Positions 1,559 to 14,978 of a stretch of 42,739 nucleotides of DNA are shown piece after piece. The number at the start of each line of letters is the position of its first letter. Positions within the stretch are counted from its first letter, which is position 1. Under the pieces are notes generated by a model. It saw only the letters and a program-made list of their open reading frames with translations, did not search any database and was not told where the DNA came from. The position numbers and the translations under genes were made by a program. Source of the DNA: Lentisphaeria bacterium (GTDB taxonomy: Bacteria > Verrucomicrobiota > Lentisphaeria > Victivallales > Victivallaceae); assembly GCA_017462015.1 (NCBI GenBank), contig JAFTRX010000078.1:1-42739 (forward strand), given 5' to 3'.

Positions 1559-2119
1559 ATGGCATATACTACGAGAAAATCACTATTGACCGCAGTACAG
1601 CAGGGCGATGAAGTTTCGTGGCAGGAGTTCTACGAAACTTACCGCCCGCTGATCCTCTTTTGTGCCAAAGGGCGGCTCACCCCGGAGGAGAGTGAAGATC
1701 TGGTACAGCTGGTCATGATGAAATTTTTCCGTTCCGGCGACAAGTTCCGCTACGATCCGGCAAAGGGACATCTGCGTTCATTTCTCGGAACCATCACCCG
1801 CAACACCATCACCGATATCCTGCGCCGCCGGAAAGCACCGGACACCGGAACACCGCTTCCGGAACCGGATGTCGATGACTTTGAACAGCACTGGGAACAG
1901 GAGTGGGAGAAACATATCTTTGCTCAAGCGTTGACCGAACTGAAATCGCGGGTCAGCGCCAGAGTGTTTCAAACCTTCGATCTCTACGTCCTGCACAGTC
2001 AAAACGCCGGTGATGTGGCACGCTTTCTCGATATTGACATCGACCGCGTTTACAAAGCAAAACTGCGCTGTATCCGGATATTGCAGGAAATCGTCTCCCG
2101 TCTGCAGGAGGAAAAGTGA
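1559..2119 (+). CDS. ECF-like RNA polymerase sigma factor (module 1)
   Basis: A 186-residue two-domain sigma factor. Sigma-2 covers about 18-92, with region 2.2 around SEDLVQLVMMKFF and the following FRYDPAKGHLRSFLGTITRN block. Sigma-4 covers about 115-180, ending in a helix-turn-helix (GDVARFLDIDIDRVYKAKLR). The frame is open upstream to 1454, but those residues are unlike the family, and the paralogue at 3770 aligns from the ATG at 1559 (shared GDEVSW). No ribosome site precedes it. The stop overlaps the kinase start by 1 nt, so the two are translationally coupled. Acidic residues in region 2.2 are retained, unlike sigma factors of the EcfP type, which need phosphorylation there. Function as a regulator of unknown genes is inferred. 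Confidence 0.88.
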   Translation: MAYTTRKSLLTAVQQGDEVSWQEFYETYRPLILFCAKGRLTPEESEDLVQLVMMKFFRSGDKFRYDPAKGHLRSFLGTITRNTITDILRRRKAPDTGTPLPEPDVDDFEQHWEQEWEKHIFAQALTELKSRVSARVFQTFDLYVLHSQNAGDVARFLDIDIDRVYKAKLRCIRILQEIVSRLQEEK

Positions 2120-3678
2120 TGGTTACGACTGTGCCGCCCGCCGGAACCATCCCCGGCTATACCCTGCTGCAAAAGTGCGGCAGAGGTGCGTGCGGTGATG
2201 TTTATATCGCGCGCGACATTGCCGGACGGCGCGTTGCACTGAAGATCATCGAAGGCGATACGCAAAGTTCCCGGGAGATGCAGGGGTTGCGCAGCAGTGC
2301 CGAATTGCAGGATTTCACCCATTTGATAAAAATCTATCACATAGGTGAAGATAAGGGTGTGTTCTATTACAGCATGGAACTTGCCGATGCATTGGAAACC
2401 GCCCCGTACCTGCCCGCCACGCTTGGCAACGTGCTGAAGCAGCGCCATCATCTTCCCCCCGGAGAAGTCATCACTCTGGGCAAACAGATATTAGCCGGGA
2501 TCAGCACACTGCATGAAGCCAATCTTATCCACCGGGATATCAAACCGGATAATCTGCTCTTTGTCAACAATGTACTCAAGTTGTCCGATCTTGGCTTGCT
2601 CCGGACGGAAACTGCTTCGTTGAGCGTAGGCGGAACGCTGGGGTTCATTCCTCCGGAACGGCTGCACTGCGCGCAGGGGTGCATATCCAGAGAAGATGAC
2701 CTCTACGCGGCGGGCAAGGTATTGTACTGCATGCTCAGCGGCAACGCGCCTGAACGTTTTCCGGAGCTTCCGCCGGAACTGCTTTCGTCTCCTGCAGCAT
2801 CAAAGCTGAACCGGATATTGCTCACCGCGTGCGATGCCATACCTGACAGGCGTTTTCACAGTGCGGCTCAATTTTCTTTGGCACTTGAACAACTTGCCTT
2901 GCCACCGCCGCCGCGCCGGCGTTTATCCAAAAAATATCTGCTGCTTTTGCCAATATTACTGGCGGCACTGCCATTTTACCGTTTTCTTTCCTCCCCGCCG
3001 CCAGTACCGGAAAAAAGTCAGCTTGCGATCGAACCACTGCCGCAACAGCAAAACAAACGTCACTATTCGATCAGTGTATCCTCCGGCACCCCGGAAAATA
3101 CGGTGATCTACTCCTTTGCTGAAAACAGCCCTTCCACCGGCAAGCCGCAGCAAAGTAAGCTTCTTGTGTCCGATCGTTTCACCGATAACAAAATATGGGC
3201 AATCAATGCCGCACACAATATCGTCCGCACGTTTAACACACTTTCCCTGAACGACTACGCTGAAGGAGAGATCAAATTCCTGCCGCAGCTTCCGGAAAAT
3301 TATGCGCTCACATTCACGATGAAAGCTGACAAACTTACTGCACCGCTGATTTGCACCATAACCTCTGCCTCCGGCAAAGAGAAATTGGAATGGGATTTTT
3401 CCGGTACACCGGAGGGCGTCCTGCCGTCTTCACTGAAATACTTCCGCAACGGCAGTGTCATCGCCAGTTACCGCCAGCGGAAAAACGGCAGACTGCGCTT
3501 CAGGCAAAAGACCAAAGTGGAAATACTCCGGACTCCGGAACGAATGGAAATCAGATTAAACGGCAAAATTGCTTTCACAGCTCCGGCATTTTTCCCCGGT
3601 GGAAAATTCATGTTCCACGCCAGCGGAGGAAATTGCAAGGTTGAAATACAAAATTTTCAGCTTCACCACCGGCAGTGA
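2119..3678 (+). CDS. Transmembrane Ser/Thr protein kinase (module 1)
   Basis: A Hanks-type kinase of 519 residues. It has a glycine loop (GRGACGDVY, ~21-29), the beta-3 lysine in VALKII (~42), the catalytic loop HRDIKPDN (~138-145), DLG in place of DFG (~157-159), and GTLGFIPPE as the activation-segment end. A basic stretch precedes one membrane helix (~272-291). The C-terminal ~220 residues would lie outside the membrane and are beta-rich, like LamG or DUF1080-type jelly rolls, so they may bind a glycan; that is inference. ATG 2119 is 6 nt after AGGAGG; the in-frame GTG at 2116 is too close. It is coupled to the upstream sigma gene, the likely phosphorylation partner. Confidence 0.9.
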   Translation: MVTTVPPAGTIPGYTLLQKCGRGACGDVYIARDIAGRRVALKIIEGDTQSSREMQGLRSSAELQDFTHLIKIYHIGEDKGVFYYSMELADALETAPYLPATLGNVLKQRHHLPPGEVITLGKQILAGISTLHEANLIHRDIKPDNLLFVNNVLKLSDLGLLRTETASLSVGGTLGFIPPERLHCAQGCISREDDLYAAGKVLYCMLSGNAPERFPELPPELLSSPAASKLNRILLTACDAIPDRRFHSAAQFSLALEQLALPPPPRRRLSKKYLLLLPILLAALPFYRFLSSPPPVPEKSQLAIEPLPQQQNKRHYSISVSSGTPENTVIYSFAENSPSTGKPQQSKLLVSDRFTDNKIWAINAAHNIVRTFNTLSLNDYAEGEIKFLPQLPENYALTFTMKADKLTAPLICTITSASGKEKLEWDFSGTPEGVLPSSLKYFRNGSVIASYRQRKNGRLRFRQKTKVEILRTPERMEIRLNGKIAFTAPAFFPGGKFMFHASGGNCKVEIQNFQLHHRQ

Positions 3679-3769
3679 ACTTGCATTTACAAAATAATAT
3701 GCTAATTTATAAAGACGGCACATCCGGTGCCGGAAAAATTGTTTATTTCGGGCGTGGGGGCGCAAAATT

Positions 3770-4333
3770 ATGTCTTTTACAACCAATGTTACATTTCTGG
3801 AAAAAATATGTTCCGGAGATGAGGTTTCATGGGAGCAGTTTAAAAAAATATACTCTCCTCTGATACGGAGTTGCGGATTTTATTGGAAATTGTCGCCGGT
3901 GGAATGTGATGAACTGGTGCAGGAGGTGATGATCGCTTTTTTCAAGCGTTCCGGAACATTCAAATATGATCCGCAGCGCGGCTCGTTCCGCAGTTACCTG
4001 CGCACCATCGCCCGGAATGGCACGTTCACCATTCTTCAGCGCCGCAGTGACACGCCGCCGGAACAGGAAAAACAGCACAGTATCATGGATTTGGCATTCG
4101 ATGAACAGTGGGATTCCGAATGGCGCAACCATCTCTTTTCCGAAGCGCTCAAGGTGCTGGAACGGGATATGGATGCAATCTCCTTCCGTTCATTTTATGA
4201 GTATGTGATCGAAGAGAAAAAACCGGCAGAGGTCGCTGATTCACTGGGAATCTCCGTCAATGCGGTATATATCAACAAGTGCCGGGCGCTGGAACATTTG
4301 CGCCGCACCATAAAAATGTTGGATCAGTTGTGA
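3770..4333 (+). CDS. ECF-like RNA polymerase sigma factor (module 2)
   Basis: A 187-residue paralogue of the sigma factor at 1559. It shares the GDEVSW-x-F N-terminus, a region 2.2 block (CDELVQEVMIAFFKRSG), FKYDPQRGSFRSYLRTIARN in region 2.3-2.4, an acidic/Trp linker (DEQWDSEW), and a C-terminal helix-turn-helix (PAEVADSLGISVNAVYINKCR). Both domains are complete. The 91-nt gap before it has no strong ribosome site; TTGCAT (3681) with TAATTT (3703) at 16 nt is a weak promoter candidate. A small anti-sigma-like gene and a kinase follow on the same strand, suggesting two layers of control. Confidence 0.9.
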   Translation: MSFTTNVTFLEKICSGDEVSWEQFKKIYSPLIRSCGFYWKLSPVECDELVQEVMIAFFKRSGTFKYDPQRGSFRSYLRTIARNGTFTILQRRSDTPPEQEKQHSIMDLAFDEQWDSEWRNHLFSEALKVLERDMDAISFRSFYEYVIEEKKPAEVADSLGISVNAVYINKCRALEHLRRTIKMLDQL

Positions 4334-4349
4334 TTTCAGGAGGTGGGAG

Positions 4350-4562
4350 ATGAGACATTTTGAAGAGTTTGAAATGGAGCATTTACTGAATTCTACCGGT
4401 TCGGTATGGATGCGCTGGCGTTGCCGTTTTCACTTGAAACGCTGTCCGGTTTGCCGCGCACGGATGGAAAAAGTTCTGGCAGATCGAAATTTTGCGGTAC
4501 GGTTCAAAGCCGGTATCGAACATCTGCGCTCCTGCGCCATTGTTGAAGAGAACCGGCAGTAA
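4350..4562 (+). CDS. Small zinc-binding anti-sigma-like protein (H-x3-C-x2-C)
   Basis: A 70-residue protein preceded by a good AGGAGG (4339-4344). Its middle holds FHLKRCPVCRARM, an H-x3-C-x2-C arrangement that is the hallmark of zf-HC2/ZAS anti-sigma domains, with helices on either side. There is no membrane segment, so it would be a soluble, minimal version. It lies 16 nt after sigma factor 2 and 15 nt before the kinase, the usual place for an anti-sigma factor. Family assignment rests on the motif and position only; a simple zinc-binding helical protein is the alternative. Confidence 0.7.
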   Translation: MRHFEEFEMEHLLNSTGSVWMRWRCRFHLKRCPVCRARMEKVLADRNFAVRFKAGIEHLRSCAIVEENRQ

Positions 4563-4577
4563 GAGTTTTCCGGAGGT

Positions 4578-6260
4578 ATGATGATATCCAAGAATCTTAT
4601 TTGCCCGGCGTGCCGGAATCAATTTGAATTTGCCCTTGACGAAGAGGTTTTTTCCGGCAATGTACTCTGTCCGCGCTGTGAGGTCAACCTTGCGTACACG
4701 GAGTACAAAGAGATGATTTTCTGCCCGGTTTGCCGTGCCGCCGCCGAACTTTCATTGTCACACCCGGAAGATGAGATACCAAAATGCGCGCAATGTTCAG
4801 CGGAGTTGTTTTCTGCAGTTCCGGAGAAGTCGCCATTTCTGCGCGATGGGGATTTTTTTGACAAGTACCGGATCATAACCCGCGTGGGCAAAGGCGGCAT
4901 GTCTGAAGTATACAAAGCGGAACATCTGCTGTTGAAGCAGATCTACGCCTTGAAGATATTGAAAAATGACCGCAGTCAGGAGTATCCGCTGATGTACAAA
5001 CGCTTTCTCCGGGAGGGAAAATGTTTTCATCAGATCGATCACCCCAATATCGTCCGGGTATACGACATCGGATGTGATGTGAAAACCGGACATCTTTTCA
5101 TCGCCATGGAATACCTCGACGGCGGTACTCTCGCTGAACTTTGCACTACCCCCATGCCGGAAACAGAACTGCTCCGCGTGGCAGAGGATATAGCACACGC
5201 CCTCGCCGAACTGGAAAAACAGCAGATCATCCACCGCGATATCAAGCCATCAAATATCATGCTCACCTCCGATGGGAAATACAAACTTATGGATCTGGGT
5301 ATCGCCAAAACCGTTAATGCCGACAACAGTGATTATACGCTGACGGTGGATCAGGCGATCTTCGGTACTCCCGTGTATGCGTCTCCGGAACAATGTGAAT
5401 CTCCGCACGATGTCGACTGCCGTTCCGATATATACTCTCTGGGCGCCACCCTCTATCACCTTGCCTGCGGCGAACCGCCGTTTGATGGTAAATCTCCGCT
5501 GAGCATCGTGGTCAATGTGGTTGGCAATTCTCCGCTGCCGCTGAGGGATAGAATGCCGGAATTATCTGCCGGAACAGTAAATTTGATTGAGCGCATGATG
5601 GATAAATCTCCGCAGAACCGTCCGCAGAATGCGAATGTACTTCTGGATGAACTTGCCATGCTCAAAGGCGGTTGTCCCCGGAAGAATTACCGCAGGCGGC
5701 AGATGTATTGGTCCGTGACCCTGCTGCTGATACTGCTTGCGGCGTCCGGCATCCTTTTGCCGCAAAAACAGAAAGCTGCCCCGCTTCACACGGAAGAAAA
5801 AACGCCGCTCATCGCCCGGAATCTGAAACTTTTTTGCGACACACTTCCCGAAACGCCAAACGTAACCAATTGGCGCAACCCTCCGGCATTTGACTGGCAT
5901 ATCCATTTGTCTCAGGCGTTGCGTGAAGCAAAAGAAAAAAATCTCAACGTTCTTCTTCTGCTGCACCGGGAACATATTATGCCGAAAAAGTGGCGTGATG
6001 AAAAATTCTTGCGCGCATTGCGAAAAAAATATGTGCTGATGTTTGGGGAATGTTCCGATAATGGTATGCCGGAAGAACAGCAGCAGCACATTGAACAACT
6101 GTGCAATATTCTGCAGATAAATGATGCTGCTCCGGCAGCAGCCGTAATCTCGCCGGATGGGGAATTTATCCGTTTGTACAAAAATATCAATGCGGCAGCT
6201 GACGGTCTGTTTTCATCAACCGCCAAGCTTAAACCCGAAAAACGCCAGCGGCAGCAGTAA
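4578..6260 (+). CDS. Transmembrane Ser/Thr protein kinase with zinc ribbons and a thioredoxin-like tail (module 2)
   Basis: A 560-residue protein. Four CxxC pairs (9-12, 31-34, 49-52, 70-73) form two N-terminal zinc ribbons. The kinase domain (~96-362) has GKGGMSEVY (104-111), ALKIL with Lys126, HRDIKPSN (219-226), DLGIAK (239-244) and GTPVYASPE. One membrane helix spans 376-394. The outer domain (~435-545) resembles thioredoxin_7-type folds (AKEKNLNVLLLL, then a helix and YVLMFGE), but the usual CxxC is absent at HREHIMPKK, so it should not do redox chemistry and may sense or bind instead. GGAGGT lies directly before the ATG; the second ATG at 4581 is equally possible. The last 45 nt overlap the convergent gene at 6216. 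Confidence 0.9.
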   Translation: MMISKNLICPACRNQFEFALDEEVFSGNVLCPRCEVNLAYTEYKEMIFCPVCRAAAELSLSHPEDEIPKCAQCSAELFSAVPEKSPFLRDGDFFDKYRIITRVGKGGMSEVYKAEHLLLKQIYALKILKNDRSQEYPLMYKRFLREGKCFHQIDHPNIVRVYDIGCDVKTGHLFIAMEYLDGGTLAELCTTPMPETELLRVAEDIAHALAELEKQQIIHRDIKPSNIMLTSDGKYKLMDLGIAKTVNADNSDYTLTVDQAIFGTPVYASPEQCESPHDVDCRSDIYSLGATLYHLACGEPPFDGKSPLSIVVNVVGNSPLPLRDRMPELSAGTVNLIERMMDKSPQNRPQNANVLLDELAMLKGGCPRKNYRRRQMYWSVTLLLILLAASGILLPQKQKAAPLHTEEKTPLIARNLKLFCDTLPETPNVTNWRNPPAFDWHIHLSQALREAKEKNLNVLLLLHREHIMPKKWRDEKFLRALRKKYVLMFGECSDNGMPEEQQQHIEQLCNILQINDAAPAAAVISPDGEFIRLYKNINAAADGLFSSTAKLKPEKRQRQQ

Positions 6261-6608
6261 CACGTCGACTACCAGTTTGAATGGTGCCGCACATCCGGCA
6301 CCGATGTTGCCCAGTCCGTTGCTGAACAACCCGAACGGCGCTCCGGCAGTACACTGGATCACTCCCAGCGGCAAGCAGAATATATCTACGATATCTCTGC
6401 CGATGGTCAGCAATTGCGCCCCGGAGTTGGTCATCCATTCGATGATATGCGGAGATGCCATATTGGCGGCTTTCAGCGCCAGCGGGGCGAGGATTATCAT
6501 GGTCACCGGTTCCCCGCGCGCCTGCGGAGATGCCGCACTCATCACTGCTGCCAACGCTGTAATGATGAAAAAACGGCGTATAAATGAACTCTTCAATAAA
6601 AATTCCAT
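6216..6608 (-). CDS. Small exported hydrophobic protein, last gene of the T2SS operon
   Basis: A 130-residue protein with a basic start and hydrophobic signal segment (FFIITALAAVMSAASPQARG), then a Gly/Cys/Phe-rich, hydrophobic body (IFCLPLGVIQCTAGAPFG, LGNIGAGCAAPF) and a final hydrophobic helix. I do not recognise a family. Its ATG overlaps the end of gspK by 16 nt, suggesting translational coupling and a real gene. Its 3' end runs 45 nt into the convergent kinase gene. It may be a membrane or periplasmic accessory of the secretion system; that is inferred from position alone. Confidence 0.6.
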   Translation of the reverse strand: MEFLLKSSFIRRFFIITALAAVMSAASPQARGEPVTMIILAPLALKAANMASPHIIEWMTNSGAQLLTIGRDIVDIFCLPLGVIQCTAGAPFGLFSNGLGNIGAGCAAPFKLVVDVLLLPLAFFGFKLGG

Positions 6609-7627
6609 TCCAGATACTCAATACATTCGTTGTCAGGACCGGAGATACGGAACGCAGGATAACTGAACACCAACCGGGAAAACGGGCGCGGTTCCTCGTC
6701 TGCCGCTTCGATAACCACAGTGCAAAGTCCGCTTTCGGTGGTGGCAAGTGCGGATTTCAGTTTGGCGATTATTTCTTCATCCAGAGTATCACTCAAGAGT
6801 GTCCGTTCCGTGCGCCACGCCTCCAGCGCCTCCATCACCTCCGGCACCTTCTCTTCGTCAATGTTGCAATAATTCTGTATCATCCGGGGAGTCGCGGTAA
6901 ACAATGCCGGTTTTCCGCCGGTCGCCGTTGCTCCGGCAGGCGGAATCAAACGGATGTGACTCATGCGTCCGTTGCGATCCATCGGGTAGAGTTTGAGAAA
7001 ATCCTGGATATAAGCGAGCTCTTCGCGGAACTGTAATGCGCCGTTACGGGGCAGCGGTTTCAAACCGGCATCTTCGTAATCATTGGCTTCCCAGCTGTCA
7101 TCCCGCGCTTCGTCATCGCTGTCGATATAGTCGGCAAGCCGTGCCTGAAAACGGGTTATCATCTCCTCTACATCAGCTTCGGTATCTTCGTTGACATACT
7201 TTTTCATCGCATTGGATGTATCCTGCGCCACATCTTCGCCGCTCAAGGTATCGTTGATGGAAAACTTCACCTTTTCGCCATAGTAGTCAATAACATGATA
7301 GACACTGTCGCACAAAAAGCGGTCGTGGTCATATTCAGTATAATCGGTTTCCCCCAGTTTTTCCGACGGAAAAAGCGCCAGATCAGCTGCGTACAGATAC
7401 TGCACTCTGGTGGCGACACCTTCGGCAACGAACATGGAACGCTGCCGCTCGACATGAGCATACACGGTAAAGGTTCCGATTTTGGAAAGTGACAACACCG
7501 CCGCCGTGATGATACCGCCGGTCAAAAGCAGAAACAGCACCGCAACCAGTGCTGAACCGCGCTCCGATGATTTACGCTGCACTTTCACTCTCTTGTGTTC
7601 ACTTCGGGGGAAATATCCTTTTCTCAT
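6593..7627 (-). CDS. gspK: Type II secretion minor pseudopilin GspK-like
   Basis: A 344-residue protein with a prepilin-like N-terminus: basic leader, then ERG followed by SALVAVLFLLLTGGIITAAV. Position +5 is not Glu, as is usual for GspK, the tip pseudopilin. A helix with FVAEGVATRVQYLY follows, and a large acidic body (~90-330) matches the size of GspK, far bigger than the other pseudopilins. It would cap the pseudopilus with GspI and GspJ. Its ATG overlaps the gspJ stop by 4 nt. This is the only pseudopilin here with the canonical Gly before the predicted cleavage point. Confidence 0.82.
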   Translation of the reverse strand: MRKGYFPRSEHKRVKVQRKSSERGSALVAVLFLLLTGGIITAAVLSLSKIGTFTVYAHVERQRSMFVAEGVATRVQYLYAADLALFPSEKLGETDYTEYDHDRFLCDSVYHVIDYYGEKVKFSINDTLSGEDVAQDTSNAMKKYVNEDTEADVEEMITRFQARLADYIDSDDEARDDSWEANDYEDAGLKPLPRNGALQFREELAYIQDFLKLYPMDRNGRMSHIRLIPPAGATATGGKPALFTATPRMIQNYCNIDEEKVPEVMEALEAWRTERTLLSDTLDEEIIAKLKSALATTESGLCTVVIEAADEEPRPFSRLVFSYPAFRISGPDNECIEYLEWNFY

Positions 7628-8358
7628 AACGCACCTCCGCCGCCGGTGGCACCGCCTTCCAGCGAGTTGGTAAAACGCGGTGTAGTTCCATCGGTGGTAT
7701 TGCGTTTGCCGAAGGTGGAATCTTTTGCCACTCCGGCGACCCGGCGCAACCAGTATTCACTGCTGCCGTCAGTCCATTCGACCTTCATCCGGATCGCCAG
7801 CGGCGGCGCCGCGTGTTCGTCTTCCGGCCAGTTTTCCTCCCAGGTGATGCCGCTGCCGTCTTCGTCCTCTTCTTCGTCGGCTTTTTCGGCGTAGGTAAAG
7901 GTTATCTGCTCGACATTTTCGGCGATAACTTCGCGTTTGTACGGCATCGTCTCTTCTTCATCCTCTTTCCACGGTAACCGGGGATAGGTGGAATATTCGG
8001 CGATAAGCTTATTTTCCTCAACAAAGAGCCGGATGAAAATCAACGCTCCGGCACGGGGACCGTAAGCACGGCGCAGCGTGGTAAAGTGGAGTTTATGCTC
8101 CTCGCCGGAAAAGACAAAACGGCTGTTGCCATTTTCATCCTTCCACTGGAACGGAATCAGATTGCGCACATGGACATCCATCATATTGTCGATAGCCATG
8201 TACTCTTTCAACCGGTTGGTGACTTTGGCAGAACGTTCATATCCATCGTAAAAACTCTTGGATGCCATTGCCACAATACCGGTCACCGCCATCAATATTC
8301 CCATGGAGATGACCAGTTCGATCAAAGTAAAAGTGTTGATACGGCAGGAGCGCTTCAT
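7624..8358 (-). CDS. gspJ: Type II secretion minor pseudopilin GspJ-like
   Basis: A 244-residue protein with a short basic leader, then TFTLIELVISMGILMAVTGIVAM, a type IV prepilin N-terminal helix with Glu5. The body has beta-strand patterns typical of GspJ (FTTLRRAYGPRAGALIFIRLFV, VIAENVEQITFTYAEK) and an acidic loop near 160-175. The residue before the cleavage point is Thr rather than Gly. The C-terminus is Gly-rich. It overlaps both neighbours by 4 nt. J versus another minor pseudopilin is assigned from size, sequence pattern and position between I and K. Confidence 0.8.
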   Translation of the reverse strand: MKRSCRINTFTLIELVISMGILMAVTGIVAMASKSFYDGYERSAKVTNRLKEYMAIDNMMDVHVRNLIPFQWKDENGNSRFVFSGEEHKLHFTTLRRAYGPRAGALIFIRLFVEENKLIAEYSTYPRLPWKEDEEETMPYKREVIAENVEQITFTYAEKADEEEDEDGSGITWEENWPEDEHAAPPLAIRMKVEWTDGSSEYWLRRVAGVAKDSTFGKRNTTDGTTPRFTNSLEGGATGGGGAL

Positions 8359-8777
8359 CTGGAATTCTCCTCCTGCTCTTTGTCTTCGTATCCGAAACGG
8401 TCTACGATGACTTTGGCGCGTTCATTACTTTCCCCGACGCGGAATATTTTGATTTCCCACTTCTTCAACGGAAGCTGACCGTCGATTTCCTTGTAATCAT
8501 CCGGCAGCCCTTCCGCCTCATCAACAGTACACTCTGCGACATATTTGGGGTACGGGAAAAATTCTTCCGGTACCGAGGGTTCTTCCGGATCACCGGCAAG
8601 CAGAAGATACTCTGTCGCCTGGATAAGCATGTGGGTCTCCATCCACTTCTCTTCCGCGTGCGCGATGCGCAGCTGGGATTGGGAGAGCAGCTGAAGCAGC
8701 CCGGCAAGACTCAAGGTGAGTATTGCCAGTGCCACGACCACTTCGATCAGGGTAAAACTGTTCCGGAAATATCTCAT
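8355..8777 (-). CDS. gspI: Type II secretion minor pseudopilin GspI-like
   Basis: A 140-residue protein with a leader of seven residues, then FTLIEVVVALAILTLSLAGLLQLL, a classic prepilin helix in which the EVVVALAI pattern is characteristic of GspI. The body is small and acidic, ending in a charged tail. Ser stands at the -1 position where Gly is usual. The start ATG overlaps the gspH stop and the stop overlaps gspJ, 4 nt each. It is expected to form the tip complex with GspJ and GspK. Confidence 0.83.
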   Translation of the reverse strand: MRYFRNSFTLIEVVVALAILTLSLAGLLQLLSQSQLRIAHAEEKWMETHMLIQATEYLLLAGDPEEPSVPEEFFPYPKYVAECTVDEAEGLPDDYKEIDGQLPLKKWEIKIFRVGESNERAKVIVDRFGYEDKEQEENSR

Positions 8778-9361
8778 ATCACCGTTTCCGCTTCATCTTC
8801 GGTCACGACCTCTTCCTCTTCTCCGGGGTCGACGTATGTTTCGGTAAAATCTTCGTTGGTCACCAGCAGTTTGCCGTTGAGAAATGACAAATCAAAACTG
8901 CGGCACACTTCACCGCACTTCATCACCAGCCGGTGTGCGGCACCGGCACCGCCATCGGGAAAGAAGCGCATAACTTCAAGTTTTCCATCCTGGGCGATGA
9001 GTTTTTCCGCGCCGGATTCGGTGACCAGTGTGCAGTTGGACGGGATCGTAAACTTCAACTCCTCGATGGCAGTTTCGTTGTCCAGTTCGATTTTGGCAAG
9101 CTCGCTTTTGGAGTAATCCGGCGATGCCACCAGAAACGTCCCCTCATGCGGGTAACTGACGACAAAATCCCGTCCGGTCTCAGCGGCGCGATAGCGCACC
9201 TGCGCCAGATAAGATTCAAACTCCAGAGCGGCGTTGTCCAGCACGACCGTGGGATCTTCTCCCCGGAACGTTCCGACAACGACGGCAACAGCGACCATCA
9301 TGATCGCCAGTACGACGATCATTTCGATCAGTGTGAAAGAAAAGCGCGACCGGAACTTCAA
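8774..9361 (-). CDS. gspH: Type II secretion minor pseudopilin GspH-like
   Basis: A 195-residue pseudopilin. The leader is MKFRSRFS, followed by FTLIEMIVVLAIMMVAVAVVVG, then an alpha-helical spine continuing into a beta domain. Its tail is strongly acidic (EEEEVVTEDEAE). The start is a TTG at 9361: no ATG or GTG lies in frame between it and the end of gspG 30 nt upstream. Ser occupies the -1 cleavage position. GspH is assigned from length and from its place between GspG and GspI. Confidence 0.8.
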   Translation of the reverse strand: MKFRSRFSFTLIEMIVVLAIMMVAVAVVVGTFRGEDPTVVLDNAALEFESYLAQVRYRAAETGRDFVVSYPHEGTFLVASPDYSKSELAKIELDNETAIEELKFTIPSNCTLVTESGAEKLIAQDGKLEVMRFFPDGGAGAAHRLVMKCGEVCRSFDLSFLNGKLLVTNEDFTETYVDPGEEEEVVTEDEAETVI

Positions 9362-9391
9362 TTCAACATTCCGCCCTGGAGCTGTGCCGGA

Positions 9392-9823
9392 TCATTCCCA
9401 GCTGTTGATATCAGCGTTTTCGTCTTCGCCGCCGGGTTCGCCGTCAGCGCCGTAGCTGATGATCTCAAAGGGACGGTTTTCGTCGCCGGGGCATTTGTAG
9501 ATGTAATCGTTGCCCCAGGGATCTTTGGGAAGCGCGCCCTGCAGACTGGGAGTCCAGTTCTCTTTGTCCTCGACGTTTTCGACCAGAGCCTGCAAACCGT
9601 TTTCGCCCTGCGGATAATCTTTGTACGCAAGCTTGTAACCGTTGACCGCATCGACCAGAAGTTTGATCTGGCTCTTGGCAGCACCGATATTGGCATTTTT
9701 GACATAGTTCATGTACATCGGCGTGGCGATGGATGCCAACGTGACCAGAATGACGATGACGATGACAACTTCAATAAGAGTGAAGCTGTGACGGCGGATG
9801 TTTTGTTTTTTTCCTTTTTTCAT
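9392..9823 (-). CDS. gspG: Type II secretion major pseudopilin GspG
   Basis: A 143-residue protein, close to the usual GspG length. A basic leader is followed by FTLIEVVIVIVILVTLASIATP, then the GspG signature region: YPQGENGLQALV, LPKDPWGNDYIY, and the calcium-loop motif SYGADGEPGGEDENADINSW near the C-terminus. This is the best-defined protein of the cluster and identifies it as a T2SS rather than a type IV pilus, because this calcium loop belongs to GspG. Ser precedes the cleavage point. Its ATG overlaps the gspF stop by 4 nt. Confidence 0.95.
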   Translation of the reverse strand: MKKGKKQNIRRHSFTLIEVVIVIVILVTLASIATPMYMNYVKNANIGAAKSQIKLLVDAVNGYKLAYKDYPQGENGLQALVENVEDKENWTPSLQGALPKDPWGNDYIYKCPGDENRPFEIISYGADGEPGGEDENADINSWE

Positions 9824-11037
9824 AACTTGGGTCCTCCCTGACTGATTGAGTTAATTTCCATCATGGCAACGAAAATCGATACCACCACCACCAGAACAAT
9901 GGCGGCAAGAAATACAATTACTGCCGGTTCAAAAAGACTGAGCAGCCGCTTGATACGCAACCGGGTGTCAGCTTCAAGGTTACCGGCGATATTACCGAGC
10001 ATCTCGCCCACGGTACCGGATTCTTCACCCACGCGGAGCATGGGAACGGTACCGGCGGGAATATATCGGTTTCCGGTAAATGCGGCAGAAAGTTTTTCAC
10101 CGCTTTTGAGTTTGCGGTCGATGCCGTCAAACTCTTCCGAAACGACCGGATTGCTGATAATGCGTCCGGCGATGCGGACGGTTCGGATGATCTCCACATG
10201 ATTGGCAATGAGGATGGCAAGTGTACGCAAATATTTGCACATTTCCAAATCGACCAGAATACCGCCCAGCAGCGGCAGTTTTATCATAAACGCACTGACT
10301 TTGCGCTTCATCTCTGCTTCGCCGTAAATGTGTTTGCACACCACCCACGCCAGATAAAGTCCGAGCGGGATCATCCACCATGCCCATTTGGCAAAGTCAC
10401 CGAAGCCCACGAGCGCATTCATCGCTCCGGGCAGATCGCGTCCCATATCGTGGAATATCTTGGCAAATTTGGGAACAAACACCGTGAAGAGCAGCACCGT
10501 CACTCCGAGAACGATGACCAGAATCGACACCGGATACACGGCACTGGAAACAATAAAGTCCTTGAGTTCTTTGCTTTCGCCCATGAATTTGTGCAGTTCG
10601 TTCACCACCTCCGGCAAACAACCGGTCTCTTCTCCGCTTTCGATCAGATTGGCGTAGTAACTGGGGAAAAGCGAACCGTGTGAGCGCACCAGTTCTGAAA
10701 ACTTTTTACCCTCGTGCAACCCCTGCCGCATGGAGGTGACAAACTCTTTCTGATCCTCTTCCGCCGCACCTTCAGCGATGATCGAAAGTGCGCGTTCCAA
10801 CGGGATATAGGCATTGAGCAGCGGCGAAAGCTGCCGGGTGAAATCAAAGACATCGATTTTGCGCCGCCGGAGAGAGAAGCCGCCGCCGCGTTTTTCACTG
10901 ACTTCACCGAAACTCTGCACCGGAACCAGTCCGCGACGGCGCAGCTTATCCAGCGACTCCTTGGCGGAGTCCGCTTCAATAAGTATTTCCCGTGGTTTTT
11001 CTCCGGGTGCTGCCGCGATGAACTTGTACAACGCCAT
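9820..11037 (-). CDS. gspF: Type II secretion inner-membrane platform protein GspF
   Basis: A 405-residue protein with an N-terminal cytoplasmic domain (ALYKFIAAAPGEK, IEADSAKESLDKLRRRGL) and two T2SSF repeats of helical bundles. Each repeat ends in a membrane segment: one near 170-195, one near 217-236, and a final one near 373-395. The pattern FTRQLSPLLNAYIPLERAL followed by ALFTG-like/VGEESGTVGEML motifs is characteristic of the GspF/PilC family. It anchors the ATPase GspE to the membrane. It starts 3 nt after gspE and overlaps gspG by 4 nt. Confidence 0.95.
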   Translation of the reverse strand: MALYKFIAAAPGEKPREILIEADSAKESLDKLRRRGLVPVQSFGEVSEKRGGGFSLRRRKIDVFDFTRQLSPLLNAYIPLERALSIIAEGAAEEDQKEFVTSMRQGLHEGKKFSELVRSHGSLFPSYYANLIESGEETGCLPEVVNELHKFMGESKELKDFIVSSAVYPVSILVIVLGVTVLLFTVFVPKFAKIFHDMGRDLPGAMNALVGFGDFAKWAWWMIPLGLYLAWVVCKHIYGEAEMKRKVSAFMIKLPLLGGILVDLEMCKYLRTLAILIANHVEIIRTVRIAGRIISNPVVSEEFDGIDRKLKSGEKLSAAFTGNRYIPAGTVPMLRVGEESGTVGEMLGNIAGNLEADTRLRIKRLLSLFEPAVIVFLAAIVLVVVVSIFVAMMEINSISQGGPKL

Positions 11038-11040
11038 AAA

Positions 11041-12630
11041 TTACAACTCCGCAGTTGAACGGTTCAACTCTTCCTGCGTGGTGATACCGGCTTTGACCTT
11101 GGCTTCACCATCCTGCTGCAAAGTCACCATGCCGTGACGGACAGCGATCTCTTCAAGTTCACTGCTGGATGCGTTGCGGTTGACCGCAGTACGCAATTCA
11201 TCATTCATAAAGAGCAGTTCAAAGATACCGCTCCGGCCCTTGTAACCGGTACCGTTGCATTTTTTACACTTTTCCGGACCTTTGACACCGTGACACACCG
11301 GACATATCTTGCGCACCAGACGCTGGGACAATACGCCGAACAGCGCACTGGAAACCAGAAAGTTTTCCACTCCCATATCCAGCAGACGGGTAACGGCACC
11401 GACGGCATCGTTGGTATGCAGTGTGCTGAGTACCAGGTGTCCGGTCAATGCGGCGTTGATGGCGATATCAGCAGTTTCGCGGTCACGGATCTCACCGACG
11501 AGAATGATATCCGGGTCCTGACGGACGATGGAACGCAACCCGGCAGCAAAGGTGACACCGACTTTGGAATTTACCTGCACCTGACACAATCCGGGGGTAC
11601 GGTATTCCACCGGGTCTTCGATGGTGATGATCTTCTTTCTGGCATCGTTGAGCTGATTGATAACACTGTACAAGGTGGTGGTCTTACCGCTTCCGGTGGG
11701 ACCGACGACCAGAATGATACCGTGCGGGATTTGGATAAGTTTTTCAAACTGCGCCAGGTGTTCATCGGACATACCCAGCTGCCGCAGATCGAAACTGACA
11801 CTCTCTTTGTTCAACAAGCGCAGTACGATACTTTCTCCGGTAAGGATGGGGATGGTGGAAATACGCATATCCAGCGACATCCGTCCGAGGGTAACGTTGG
11901 TACGTCCGTCCTGCGGCAGACGGCTTTCCGCAATGTTCAATCCGCCCAGAAGTTTGATTCGTGAGGCGATAGCGGGGAACTGGTTCAGCGGACAGTTGAA
12001 AATCTCTGTCAGCACACCATCGACACGGCAGCGGACTGACACTGATTCTTCCCCCGGCTCGATGTGGATATCACTCGCTCCCAGTTCCAGCGACCGGGTA
12101 AAAATATCATTGACCAAACGGACGATACGCGCTTCTCCTGCCATTGAACGCAACGTGTTTTCATCTTCGGCGGCAAGATTTTCTTCCTCCTCTTCACCTG
12201 CATTCTGGAGTTTGCTCAACATCCGTTCCAGAAACGGACGGCGGACAAAGCGGACATACAATTCGCTTTTCCATGTACGGCGCACCAGATATTCCAGATT
12301 GCCGAGAGTGAAGGGGGAGGTGACCAGAAAGGTGACTTTCCCTTCATCCCATTCGTAAACCAGACATTCATTGGCGTTGAAAAAGTCCAGCGGAAATTCC
12401 GGCGGCTGTTCCGGCAATCCCAACTCTTCTTCATCCAATACCGGCACACCGAAGGCGGTGGCGTATAACTCCACCAGCTGCGCTTCATTCAGTTTGGCAT
12501 CCTGCAGCAGATGGCGGATGGAACTTTCCGGATCATCCGCATTGTAATAATCCGGAAACCGGCTTTGCAGTATGCCGTTCAGCTTTTCCAGCGATGCGGC
12601 AATATTGAGTTTGTTTTCCTGTTCGCTCAC
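11041..12630 (-). CDS. gspE: Type II secretion ATPase GspE
   Basis: A 529-residue secretion ATPase. The N-terminal T2SSE-N domain is followed by a RecA-like domain with Walker A GPTGSGKTTTLYS (~308-320), Asp-box residues, Walker B DIILVGEIRDRETADIA (~372), and a zinc-binding CPVCHG-x-C-x2-C insertion (~440-458) that is typical of GspE and absent from many pilus ATPases. It drives pseudopilus assembly through GspF. The start is GTG at 12630, overlapping the gspD stop (GTGA). Confidence 0.96.
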   Translation of the reverse strand: MSEQENKLNIAASLEKLNGILQSRFPDYYNADDPESSIRHLLQDAKLNEAQLVELYATAFGVPVLDEEELGLPEQPPEFPLDFFNANECLVYEWDEGKVTFLVTSPFTLGNLEYLVRRTWKSELYVRFVRRPFLERMLSKLQNAGEEEEENLAAEDENTLRSMAGEARIVRLVNDIFTRSLELGASDIHIEPGEESVSVRCRVDGVLTEIFNCPLNQFPAIASRIKLLGGLNIAESRLPQDGRTNVTLGRMSLDMRISTIPILTGESIVLRLLNKESVSFDLRQLGMSDEHLAQFEKLIQIPHGIILVVGPTGSGKTTTLYSVINQLNDARKKIITIEDPVEYRTPGLCQVQVNSKVGVTFAAGLRSIVRQDPDIILVGEIRDRETADIAINAALTGHLVLSTLHTNDAVGAVTRLLDMGVENFLVSSALFGVLSQRLVRKICPVCHGVKGPEKCKKCNGTGYKGRSGIFELLFMNDELRTAVNRNASSSELEEIAVRHGMVTLQQDGEAKVKAGITTQEELNRSTAEL

Positions 12631-14978
12631 TTCCAGAACTCCTCGTTGCGGAACAACACGCCGCGGTGCTTATTGGCATCGGGGTTGTCGCCCAAACCCT
12701 TGTCGTACTGATTGAGCGCTTTGATCGCATCGTTGTAGCGGCTGATGAGGGTATCGATCTCACTGTGTTCGTTGACGATGTAACCGGTGATCAGCACCAG
12801 CACTTCGGAGCGTTCAACGGAAGCATTGGTCGAGCCGAGCAGACGCTTGAGGAACGGAATCTGGTTGATGATCGGAACGGAATCCAGATTATCGTTGGTG
12901 TTTTCCTGAATCAAACCGCCCAGAACCATGGTCTGTCCGTTGGCGATGGTCATGCTGGTCTCAAGTTTGCGGGAGTTGAATACCGGTGAATCGATCCCCG
13001 GGGTGATGTTATTGGCGACTGCAGTGGACATCGTCTGGGAAATTTCCAGTGTAATAAGATCGGTACTGGTGACATAGGGAGTGACCTTGAGGATCACACC
13101 GACGTCCTCATACTGATAGTTGCTGCTGATGTTGCCGTTGGAACTGGACGCGTTGGTCAAACTGCTGGAAATGTACGGCACTCTCTGACCGACATTGATA
13201 CTCGCTTCAGTGTGACTGGAGACCAGCAGTTGCGGGCTGGAAATAACTTTGACCAATCCGTTGCCCGCCTGCGCCCGGATGTAACCGAAACGGCGCTGGG
13301 GATCGTTGGGGTCGGTGATGGCGAAAGTGGCGCCGCCCTGCCGGTTGGAACCGGTGGCAAGGACAGTTTTGCCGCTGGCATCGGTGGTGAAGGGGGAAAG
13401 ATAAGTTCCGGTGTTGGTGTTGGGGTAGTTGGTACCGAAAACACTGGATGTACTGCCGCTGGTCGCGGTTCCGGAAAATTCCAGACCGAACTGCGTGGAT
13501 TCAGTAAGGGTGACTTCCACCATCAATACCTGCAAAAGCACCTGCGCGGGAACTACGTCAAGTTTATCCAGCAGCGCTTTGATCGAAGCGTAGGTACGCG
13601 GCGTACAGCGGATGACCAGACGGTTCAGTACGCCGTCGGCAAAAACGCGCACCGGCTGACCGAAAACTTTGGAGTTCTGGTCTATCTCCATATTGGTTCC
13701 GGCATTGACCGAGGTGGACGGCGTACTGGTACGGATGGTGGAGGTCGTGCGGCGCTGGTTGGGGGAGTTGATGGTCTCCATCCGGGTGTTGCCGGTGTTG
13801 GAGTCGATGGTCAACGCAGTACCCTGAGTTTCAAAGATGATGGACAACGCACGGGAGAGGTGCGCGGCCTTGTTGTGCCGTACTTTGTAGACAAACACAC
13901 TTTCCTGATCGTCACTGCCGGCGCTGTCCAGCAATCCGATCCATTCACGGATCAAATCCACTGCCTCCTGCGTGGCGGCGGAAACGACCATCAGCCGCAT
14001 CCGGTCCAGACCGACCACATAAACCGCTCCGGGCTGGTCGGTACGTTCATTTGCCTTGTGGATCTTAAGACCGAGAACCGGCAGAACTTCCTGCAGTTCC
14101 AGCGCGACTTTGGTCGGCAGGATGTGGTTGCAGGGAACGACGGCACGCGGCCAGTCGGTTTTGCCGTTGCGGTCGAGATATTCGATAAGTTCGCGGATCT
14201 TCGGCATATTTTCGGATGAATCGCATACCATCACCGCGTTAGGACGGGTAAGGTCGGCAATTATCGCTCCGGAACCGATGAAGCCGCGGATCTGCCGGGT
14301 AACTTCAGTACTGGTGGCATTGATCAACTGCCGGTAATAGATTTCCGTTTTGGAACCTTTGCCGGTACGGTTGTCCGGCTGCATGGCAAACTTGTTAAGC
14401 GCCATGATGCGGAGCAGGGAATCTTCCACTTTGACTCCGGCACCGGCGAGAAACACCATCCGGTCGAAGGTGTTCCACAATTCGCGGCGGCTCATTTTAG
14501 AGTTCAAGTTCAAAGTGACCACGCCGCGCAGATCGCTGTCGGCGACAAAGTTGAATCCGAGCAGATCGCCGAATGCCGACAGCACGTCCAAAAGCGGCGC
14601 ACTGTTGAAAACCAGCGACACATCGATCATCTCATCGCCGTTGAGCGCGATGAAATCTTCATAAAATTTCGGATTGGGCTTGCTTAACTCCGCAATGGCA
14701 TCCTTTTTTCCTGCGGGCACATTGAATTTGGAAAGCGTTTCCGGCTTGACCACAGGACGTTCTGCATCCTGGGGTCTGATCCGTTCTGTCGATGCGTTCT
14801 CGTAACTCTTGGCGGCATCGCTCTTTTTATCTTTCTTATCTTTGCGGTGAAGAAAGGCGAAACGATCGACTTTTTTATCTTTTTTATCCTTCTCTTTTTC
14901 CACTGACTGACAGGAGTTCAACAGCAGAACCGGTAGCAATATCAATGCTCCAAGTATACGACATTTGACTTTAGACAT
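12627..14978 (-). CDS. gspD: Type II secretion secretin GspD with N-terminal lipobox
   Basis: A 783-residue outer-membrane channel protein. The signal peptide ends in LLLNSC, a plausible lipobox with Cys at 23, followed by a Lys/Asp-rich linker containing KDKKDKK twice. N0, N1, N2 and N3 domains follow (VSLVFNSAPLLDVLSAFG near 120, then ring-building repeats to ~480), and the secretin domain ends in GQTMVLGGLIQENT and SEVLVLITGYIV. The lipid anchor suggests a self-piloting secretin like Pseudomonas HxcQ; no pilotin gene is nearby. The start ATG at 14978 follows AGAGGTG. A 45-nt AT-rich gap separates it from gspC. Confidence 0.94.
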   Translation of the reverse strand: MSKVKCRILGALILLPVLLLNSCQSVEKEKDKKDKKVDRFAFLHRKDKKDKKSDAAKSYENASTERIRPQDAERPVVKPETLSKFNVPAGKKDAIAELSKPNPKFYEDFIALNGDEMIDVSLVFNSAPLLDVLSAFGDLLGFNFVADSDLRGVVTLNLNSKMSRRELWNTFDRMVFLAGAGVKVEDSLLRIMALNKFAMQPDNRTGKGSKTEIYYRQLINATSTEVTRQIRGFIGSGAIIADLTRPNAVMVCDSSENMPKIRELIEYLDRNGKTDWPRAVVPCNHILPTKVALELQEVLPVLGLKIHKANERTDQPGAVYVVGLDRMRLMVVSAATQEAVDLIREWIGLLDSAGSDDQESVFVYKVRHNKAAHLSRALSIIFETQGTALTIDSNTGNTRMETINSPNQRRTTSTIRTSTPSTSVNAGTNMEIDQNSKVFGQPVRVFADGVLNRLVIRCTPRTYASIKALLDKLDVVPAQVLLQVLMVEVTLTESTQFGLEFSGTATSGSTSSVFGTNYPNTNTGTYLSPFTTDASGKTVLATGSNRQGGATFAITDPNDPQRRFGYIRAQAGNGLVKVISSPQLLVSSHTEASINVGQRVPYISSSLTNASSSNGNISSNYQYEDVGVILKVTPYVTSTDLITLEISQTMSTAVANNITPGIDSPVFNSRKLETSMTIANGQTMVLGGLIQENTNDNLDSVPIINQIPFLKRLLGSTNASVERSEVLVLITGYIVNEHSEIDTLISRYNDAIKALNQYDKGLGDNPDANKHRGVLFRNEEFWK

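Follow-up and report, generated by a model that had tools for sequence, protein, structure and literature searches.

A small anti-sigma-like gene between an ECF sigma factor gene and a membrane kinase gene in a Lentisphaeria bacterium

The window analysed here is a stretch of 42,739 nucleotides at the 5' end of a 204-kb contig, taken from the 2.8-Mb draft genome of a Lentisphaeria bacterium of the family Victivallaceae. It carries two neighbouring modules, each with a gene for an extracytoplasmic function (ECF) sigma factor and a gene for a membrane-bound Ser/Thr kinase. Sigma 2 and kinase 2 are separated by a gene of 70 codons, which makes module 2 a set of three genes. The encoded protein, P0005, is predicted to be a minimal class I zinc anti-sigma (mini-ZAS). 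Module 2 probably forms a switch of sigma factor, minimal anti-sigma and sensor kinase in which the kinase releases sigma 2; we put the probability of this reading at roughly 60%. The original prediction had described two-gene modules of sigma factor and kinase. The pairing is real, but the anti-sigma-like gene of module 2 had been overlooked. The five genes are:

1559-2119, + strand: sigma 1, ECF-type sigma factor of 186 residues, DAED-like motif ESED
2119-3678, + strand: kinase 1, Hanks-type Ser/Thr kinase
3770-4333, + strand: sigma 2, ECF-type sigma factor of 187 residues, DAED-like motif ECDE
4350-4562, + strand: mini anti-sigma (mini-ZAS, P0005) of 70 residues, with an AGGAGG-like sequence in front
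4578-6260, + strand: kinase 2, Ser/Thr kinase

The 70-residue protein

P0005 carries the motif C25-x2-H28-x3-C32-x2-C35, in which His28, Cys32 and Cys35 provide the Hx3Cx2C signature that spans helices 2 and 3 in class I anti-sigmas, and it has no hydrophobic segment. Helices are predicted for residues 6-13, 19-31 and 33-69. In the model, helices 3 and 4 appear as the single helix 33-69; the class I anti-sigma domain is described with a separate helix 4 on a flexible linker. P0005 matches the class I anti-sigma domains of ECF systems by sequence profile, by profile comparison and by predicted fold; each of these matches is moderate and all of them agree. The top structural matches (fold comparison by VIA-align) and the top sequence matches are anti-sigmas. 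The Pfam family zf-HC2 recognizes only four of 30 mini-ZAS members at E up to 0.1, with an E-value of 0.27 for P0005. PupR, which is among the structural matches, is not known to have a zinc motif, and the fold match is therefore no proof of zinc binding.

The gene is under purifying selection (dN 0.14, dS 0.84 against the closest relative), which rules out a chance open reading frame (ORF). Among 70 mini-ZAS proteins, a set that was selected with the motif, His28, Cys32 and Cys35 are present in all and Cys25 in 56. A search for a shared phosphosite in the mini-ZAS proteins found no invariant site. Most copies are about 62-90 residues long and correspond to the domain alone, without a membrane or sensor part, and at most loci a kinase gene is adjacent. 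As a prediction from sequence and model, the class I anti-sigma identity of P0005 is well supported computationally.

Sigma factors

Sigma 1 and sigma 2 score above the cut-off of the ECF superfamily model TIGR02937 (62.7 and 61.1 bits, cut-off 42.9) and of Pfam Sigma70_r2. For region 4, Pfam gives a match under the cut-off for sigma 2 and lists none for sigma 1. Both proteins have the ECF layout, with regions 2 and 4 only and about 190 residues. They share 37% identity over 191 columns (E = 2e-41), in agreement with the predicted relationship of the two short sigma factors, and are the only members of their family in this genome at E up to 0.01. On the contigs examined, none of the other five sigma70_r2 and nine other Pkinase matches of the genome are adjacent.

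The DAED-like site of region 2.2 contains at least two acidic residues in 121 of 123 sigma proteins from the family and is nowhere devoid of them; Ser or Thr occurs anywhere in the site in only eight. The second residue of the site is Cys in 30/60 proteins of class B, 15/16 of class F and 6/39 of the mini-ZAS class, and a redox role for this residue is conceivable. Position 75 of P0003 was considered as a phosphosite of the sigma factor (Ser/Thr in 98% of class B, 75% of class F and 18% of the mini-ZAS class). Since Thr or Ala is common at the equivalent place in ECF sigma factors, it is not claimed as such.

Conservation of the kinase link

A profile built from the two sigma factors was run against 78 genomes of the family and gave 148 matching rows, spread over 56 of them. 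Neighbourhoods were fetched for 121 rows in addition to the two of the window, and the resulting 123 sigma genes (ranks 1-124 minus 114) were classified; the count leaves out rank 114 and the lowest-ranked 24 rows. A kinase gene adjoins 111 of the 123. In 22 cases it lies downstream, beyond the small gene or an equally long gap, in 60 it is downstream and overlaps or abuts the sigma gene, in 11 it is upstream and in 18 its orientation is convergent. Of the 12 sigma genes without a kinase, five are located less than 1 kb from a contig end (L070, L107, L129, L140 and L146), and for L144 the same holds on its upstream side. The conserved adjacency that had been proposed as a check on the kinase link was thus found.

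As a control, 50 other ECF loci were inspected, the lowest-ranked of the named-genome search (L249-L298; sigma factors 23-33% identical, mostly from Proteobacteria). A kinase is adjacent in two of these (L249, L268), a count that may be low because the kinase profile was built from the window's family.

Classes B and F are by definition without mini-ZAS and comprise 76 sigma genes with a kinase. In class F (L081, L105, L109, L111, L115, L122 and others) the sigma gene converges on a gene for a kinase of 942-984 residues. In 15 of 16 cases the two genes share 55-107 bp at their 3' ends; in L141, 36 bp separate them.

Distribution of mini-ZAS

A profile of 30 mini-ZAS members was searched independently in the 78 genomes and gave 43 matches in 33 of them. 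Directly upstream of 39 matches, on the same strand, lies a sigma gene of the family. Among the remaining four, L202 retains the last 29 sigma residues upstream, and L201, L203 and L204 have no recognizable sigma gene. The sigma and mini-ZAS genes share a four-base overlap in 23 of 59 gaps. Two copies look damaged: L032 (genome G045) contains one in-frame stop and L051 (G074) may be a frame-shifted remnant, as judged by eye.

In a search of 387 genomes of the phylum, in which at most 14 candidates per genome were scored and the counts are consequently lower bounds, matches occur in at least 57 genomes, of which 27 belong to the family, 14 to the rest of the order and 11 to the rest of the class, while five lie beyond the class. 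The latter five are weak (E of 3.9e-6 or worse). A named relative labelled Verrucomicrobia (L242) has a clear match (E = 3.5e-16). At 30 fetched loci from outside the family, a sigma gene is located upstream in 27 and a kinase is present in 19, 18 of which are among the 27. Several sigma/mini-ZAS pairs of order relatives have no kinase (L200, L209, L210, L213 and L214). By eye, the kinase-less pairs of L200, L209, L210 and L214 are followed by TadE/TadG pilus-like genes.

The domain also occurs fused to its neighbours. In G034, a single ORF of 245 residues combines a weak sigma match with mini-ZAS. In eight of 26 kinase ORFs at named-genome loci, the motif is found N-terminal to the kinase domain; one of these is from Halobeggiatoa and the others are Planctomycete or unnamed. 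The mini-ZAS profile itself matches only three of the eight (L234, L237 and L248; E 7e-4 to 2e-3). With hhalign, the kinase-fused set aligns to mini-ZAS over 69 columns with a probability of 96; this set was chosen by its Hx3Cx2C motif, as was a set of ChrR-like control proteins (20 before identical rows were dropped). None of 117 kinase ORFs of the family carries the fused zinc motif.

In a tree rooted with Planctomycete-type sigma factors, mini-ZAS lineages, including that of sigma 2, are placed close to the root, and classes B and F fall into a group together with further mini-ZAS lineages; many forks are weak. The tree was subsampled (20 of 59 class B rows in addition to that of the window, 6 of 16 class F rows; L129, L140 and L144 removed). 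These positions suggest that mini-ZAS was lost in classes B and F. It is possible, at somewhat less than even odds, that across Lentisphaeria the minimal anti-sigma domain is a movable part set between the ECF sigma factor and the sensor kinase: it has its own gene in the window, is fused to a sigma match in one relative and to the kinase at Planctomycete-type loci, and may have been lost in the two large sigma classes without it.

Kinases and their outer domains

Kinase 1 and kinase 2 match Pkinase (Pfam) with 105.7 and 167.1 bits and contain the HRDIKPxN and DLG catalytic motifs of Hanks-type Ser/Thr kinases. Each has one clearly hydrophobic segment, near residues 273-292 in kinase 1 and 376-394 in kinase 2. 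As originally described, a membrane kinase follows each sigma factor on the + strand. The two share 25% identity over 316 columns, mostly in the kinase domain.

The outer domains are unlike each other, as had been predicted. That of kinase 2 has a thioredoxin fold without a CxxC pair, and the N-terminus of this kinase contains CxxC pairs and is zinc-ribbon-like with weak Pfam matches only. At L046, an ORF of 528 residues on the - strand (from about 6311 upward) contains a thioredoxin-like CSFC motif; the sigma gene follows 5 bp after its end. With an E-value of 2e-4 this ORF matches the outer domain of kinase 2, which suggests that the domain can be separate or fused. The C-terminal outer domain of kinase 1 has no Pfam match, and a sequence search of the PDB gave only two antibody chains (E 1.9-2.5). 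It is shared with other kinases of the family and is related to the outer domains of kinases at seven other loci (L042, L043, L048-L051 and L193), six of which have a mini-ZAS match; the exception is L051.

Module 1 and the tandem arrangement

In module 1, no anti-sigma gene is located between the sigma and kinase genes. At 2119, the first letter of the kinase 1 ATG is also the last letter of the stop codon of sigma 1, which agrees with the predicted coupling by overlap; a GTG at 2116 is an alternative start. In a first tree, sigma 1 is placed beside L047 (SH-aLRT 91), a locus with a mini-ZAS gene between sigma and kinase; the rooted tree leaves this pairing without resolution. Together with the occurrence of kinase-1-type outer domains at mini-ZAS loci, the pairing makes loss of mini-ZAS from module 1 the simplest reading.

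The closest relative found, G050, keeps module 2 (identities of 87% for sigma, 77% for mini-ZAS and 70% for kinase). All that it has of module 1 is a segment similar to the C-terminal 50 residues of kinase 1 (48%), adjoining a gene pair that is found about 14 kb beyond kinase 2 in the window (matched by eye). Thus, the two modules are side by side in the window, as originally described, but a conserved tandem unit is rejected.

Proposed mechanism and alternatives

The computed evidence covers the content and order of the genes, their conservation, and the homology and predicted fold of the anti-sigma; from it we infer sigma binding, relief by the kinase, the nature of the signal and the gene loss from module 1. 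P0005 would be a sigma-binding domain alone, without membrane anchor or sensor domain, that lies over the sigma-4 and sigma-2 surfaces of sigma 2 and in this way keeps it inactive. The membrane-bound kinase 2 would act as the sensor, its outer thioredoxin-fold domain detecting a change in the envelope, and would phosphorylate the sigma/anti-sigma complex, whereupon sigma 2 is released. Because the acidic region 2.2 is kept, the released sigma 2 should bind RNA polymerase without phosphorylation there. Module 1 would be the same type of cassette minus the mini anti-sigma gene. Kinase 1 may act directly on sigma 1, or sigma 1 may borrow the anti-sigma of module 2. The original prediction had supposed that the kinases act on the sigma factors in another way than by the known phospho-switch, and the anti-sigma-like gene gives this idea a concrete form.

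That the kinase instead phosphorylates sigma 2 itself, at the linker, is rather unlikely. The 76 kinase-linked sigma genes of classes B and F would fit such direct action, as would a sigma-to-kinase partial correlation of 0.50, the retained zinc motif of the motif-selected mini-ZAS set and the linker phosphosites described for EcfK in PMC13147305. However, Ser/Thr stays below 50% in every class at all linker positions of sigma 2 (inserted columns excluded), and region 2.2 is acidic already. The latter also bears on a switch of the ECF43 type, in which a sigma factor without acidic residues in region 2.2 is activated when the kinase phosphorylates a threonine there. Neighbouring sigma and kinase genes are indeed common to both systems, but the site is acidic in 121/123 proteins, including ESED and ECDE of the window. 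This switch is accordingly rejected for the window's sigma family as very improbable, for the same reason that had been given in the original prediction.

The 70-residue protein might also be a zinc adaptor through which the kinase recruits the sigma factor or other substrates. The eight kinases with the motif in the same chain would suit this role; the five sigma/mini-ZAS loci without a kinase and the anti-sigmas among the top structural and sequence matches argue against it and render it improbable. An assembly of ordinary neighbours with no joint function is hardly credible. The tandem arrangement is not kept in G050, as would be expected of such neighbours, but a kinase stands beside 111/123 family sigma genes against 2/50 other ECF loci, and the four-base overlaps between sigma and mini-ZAS genes recur. 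The preferred reading of module 2 is thus that of a kinase-relieved anti-sigma switch.

Genomic surroundings

A protein of 295 residues is encoded 47 bp before sigma 1 (624-1511, + strand). Its N-terminal part is zinc-ribbon-like with CxxC, hydrophobic stretches are present as well, and its Pfam matches are weak and under the cut-off. The best + strand promoter site (1520-1548) precedes sigma 1, in a scan that gave six sites where 5.2 are expected. A terminator scan between the modules found a sole hairpin, on the minus strand, a result at chance level. A type II secretion operon on the - strand (6216-14978) is directed towards the modules and includes secretin, E, F, G and, weakly, K (Pfam); further pseudopilin-like ORFs were identified by eye. 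The operon closes with a small ORF that overlaps kinase 2 at the 3' end, and two operon genes are likewise located near module 2 in G050. In the named-genome search, the closest relatives are Lentisphaeria metagenome-assembled genomes, some of them from sheep colon, roe deer and yak cecum.

Relation to known systems

For ECF43 (EcfP/PknT, EcfK/PknS), PMC13147305 and PMC8999054 describe an ECF sigma gene next to the gene of a Hanks-type transmembrane kinase whose outer domains vary. The sigma genes of the family share the adjacent kinase gene (111/123). They differ in the acidic region 2.2, since in ECF43 the DAED motif is replaced by QTTA or STTA, which contains a phosphorylated Thr, and module 2 additionally includes the conserved anti-sigma-like gene. 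Other kinase-linked groups listed in PMC8999054 are ECF59, 61, 62, 217 and 283, four of the five with Planctomycete examples; according to the same paper, groups other than ECF43 have DAED or a similar motif. A serine switch is instead given for ECF59 in PMC8103513. The kinase neighbour is common to these groups and to the present family, and the named-genome search found Planctomycete loci with related sigma factors (about 28-34% identical) and kinases.

With SigW/RsiW, SigL/RslA and SigE/ChrR, module 2 shares the Hx3Cx2C domain, a similar helix layout and an anti-sigma gene directly after the sigma gene. Unlike in these pairs, the domain here mostly stands alone, with a kinase gene adjacent at most loci. 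Loosening of a sigma/zinc-motif anti-sigma pair by a kinase is described for SigH/RshA/PknB of M. tuberculosis (PMC4601284). Module 2 likewise contains a sigma factor, a zinc-motif anti-sigma and a kinase. In M. tuberculosis the kinase gene is not known to be part of the sigma locus, whereas here the kinase is encoded in the same cassette. The module 2 cassette is thus a union of two known kinds of ECF control. No description of a co-encoded sigma/mini anti-sigma/kinase cassette was found in the open-licence PMC literature, which is weak evidence of absence.

PMC8999054 points to a need for further work on how kinase-linked ECF sigma factors are controlled when their acidic region 2.2 is intact. 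The conserved third gene permits a direct test of that control, and natural variants with, without and fused to it permit comparison. If the domain is indeed a movable part, the kinase-linked ECF systems that have an acidic region 2.2 would either be anti-sigma systems gated by a kinase or descend from such systems, which would explain how the kinase-linked groups other than ECF43 work. Sigma 1 and sigma 2 may then share one anti-sigma that is read by two kinases.

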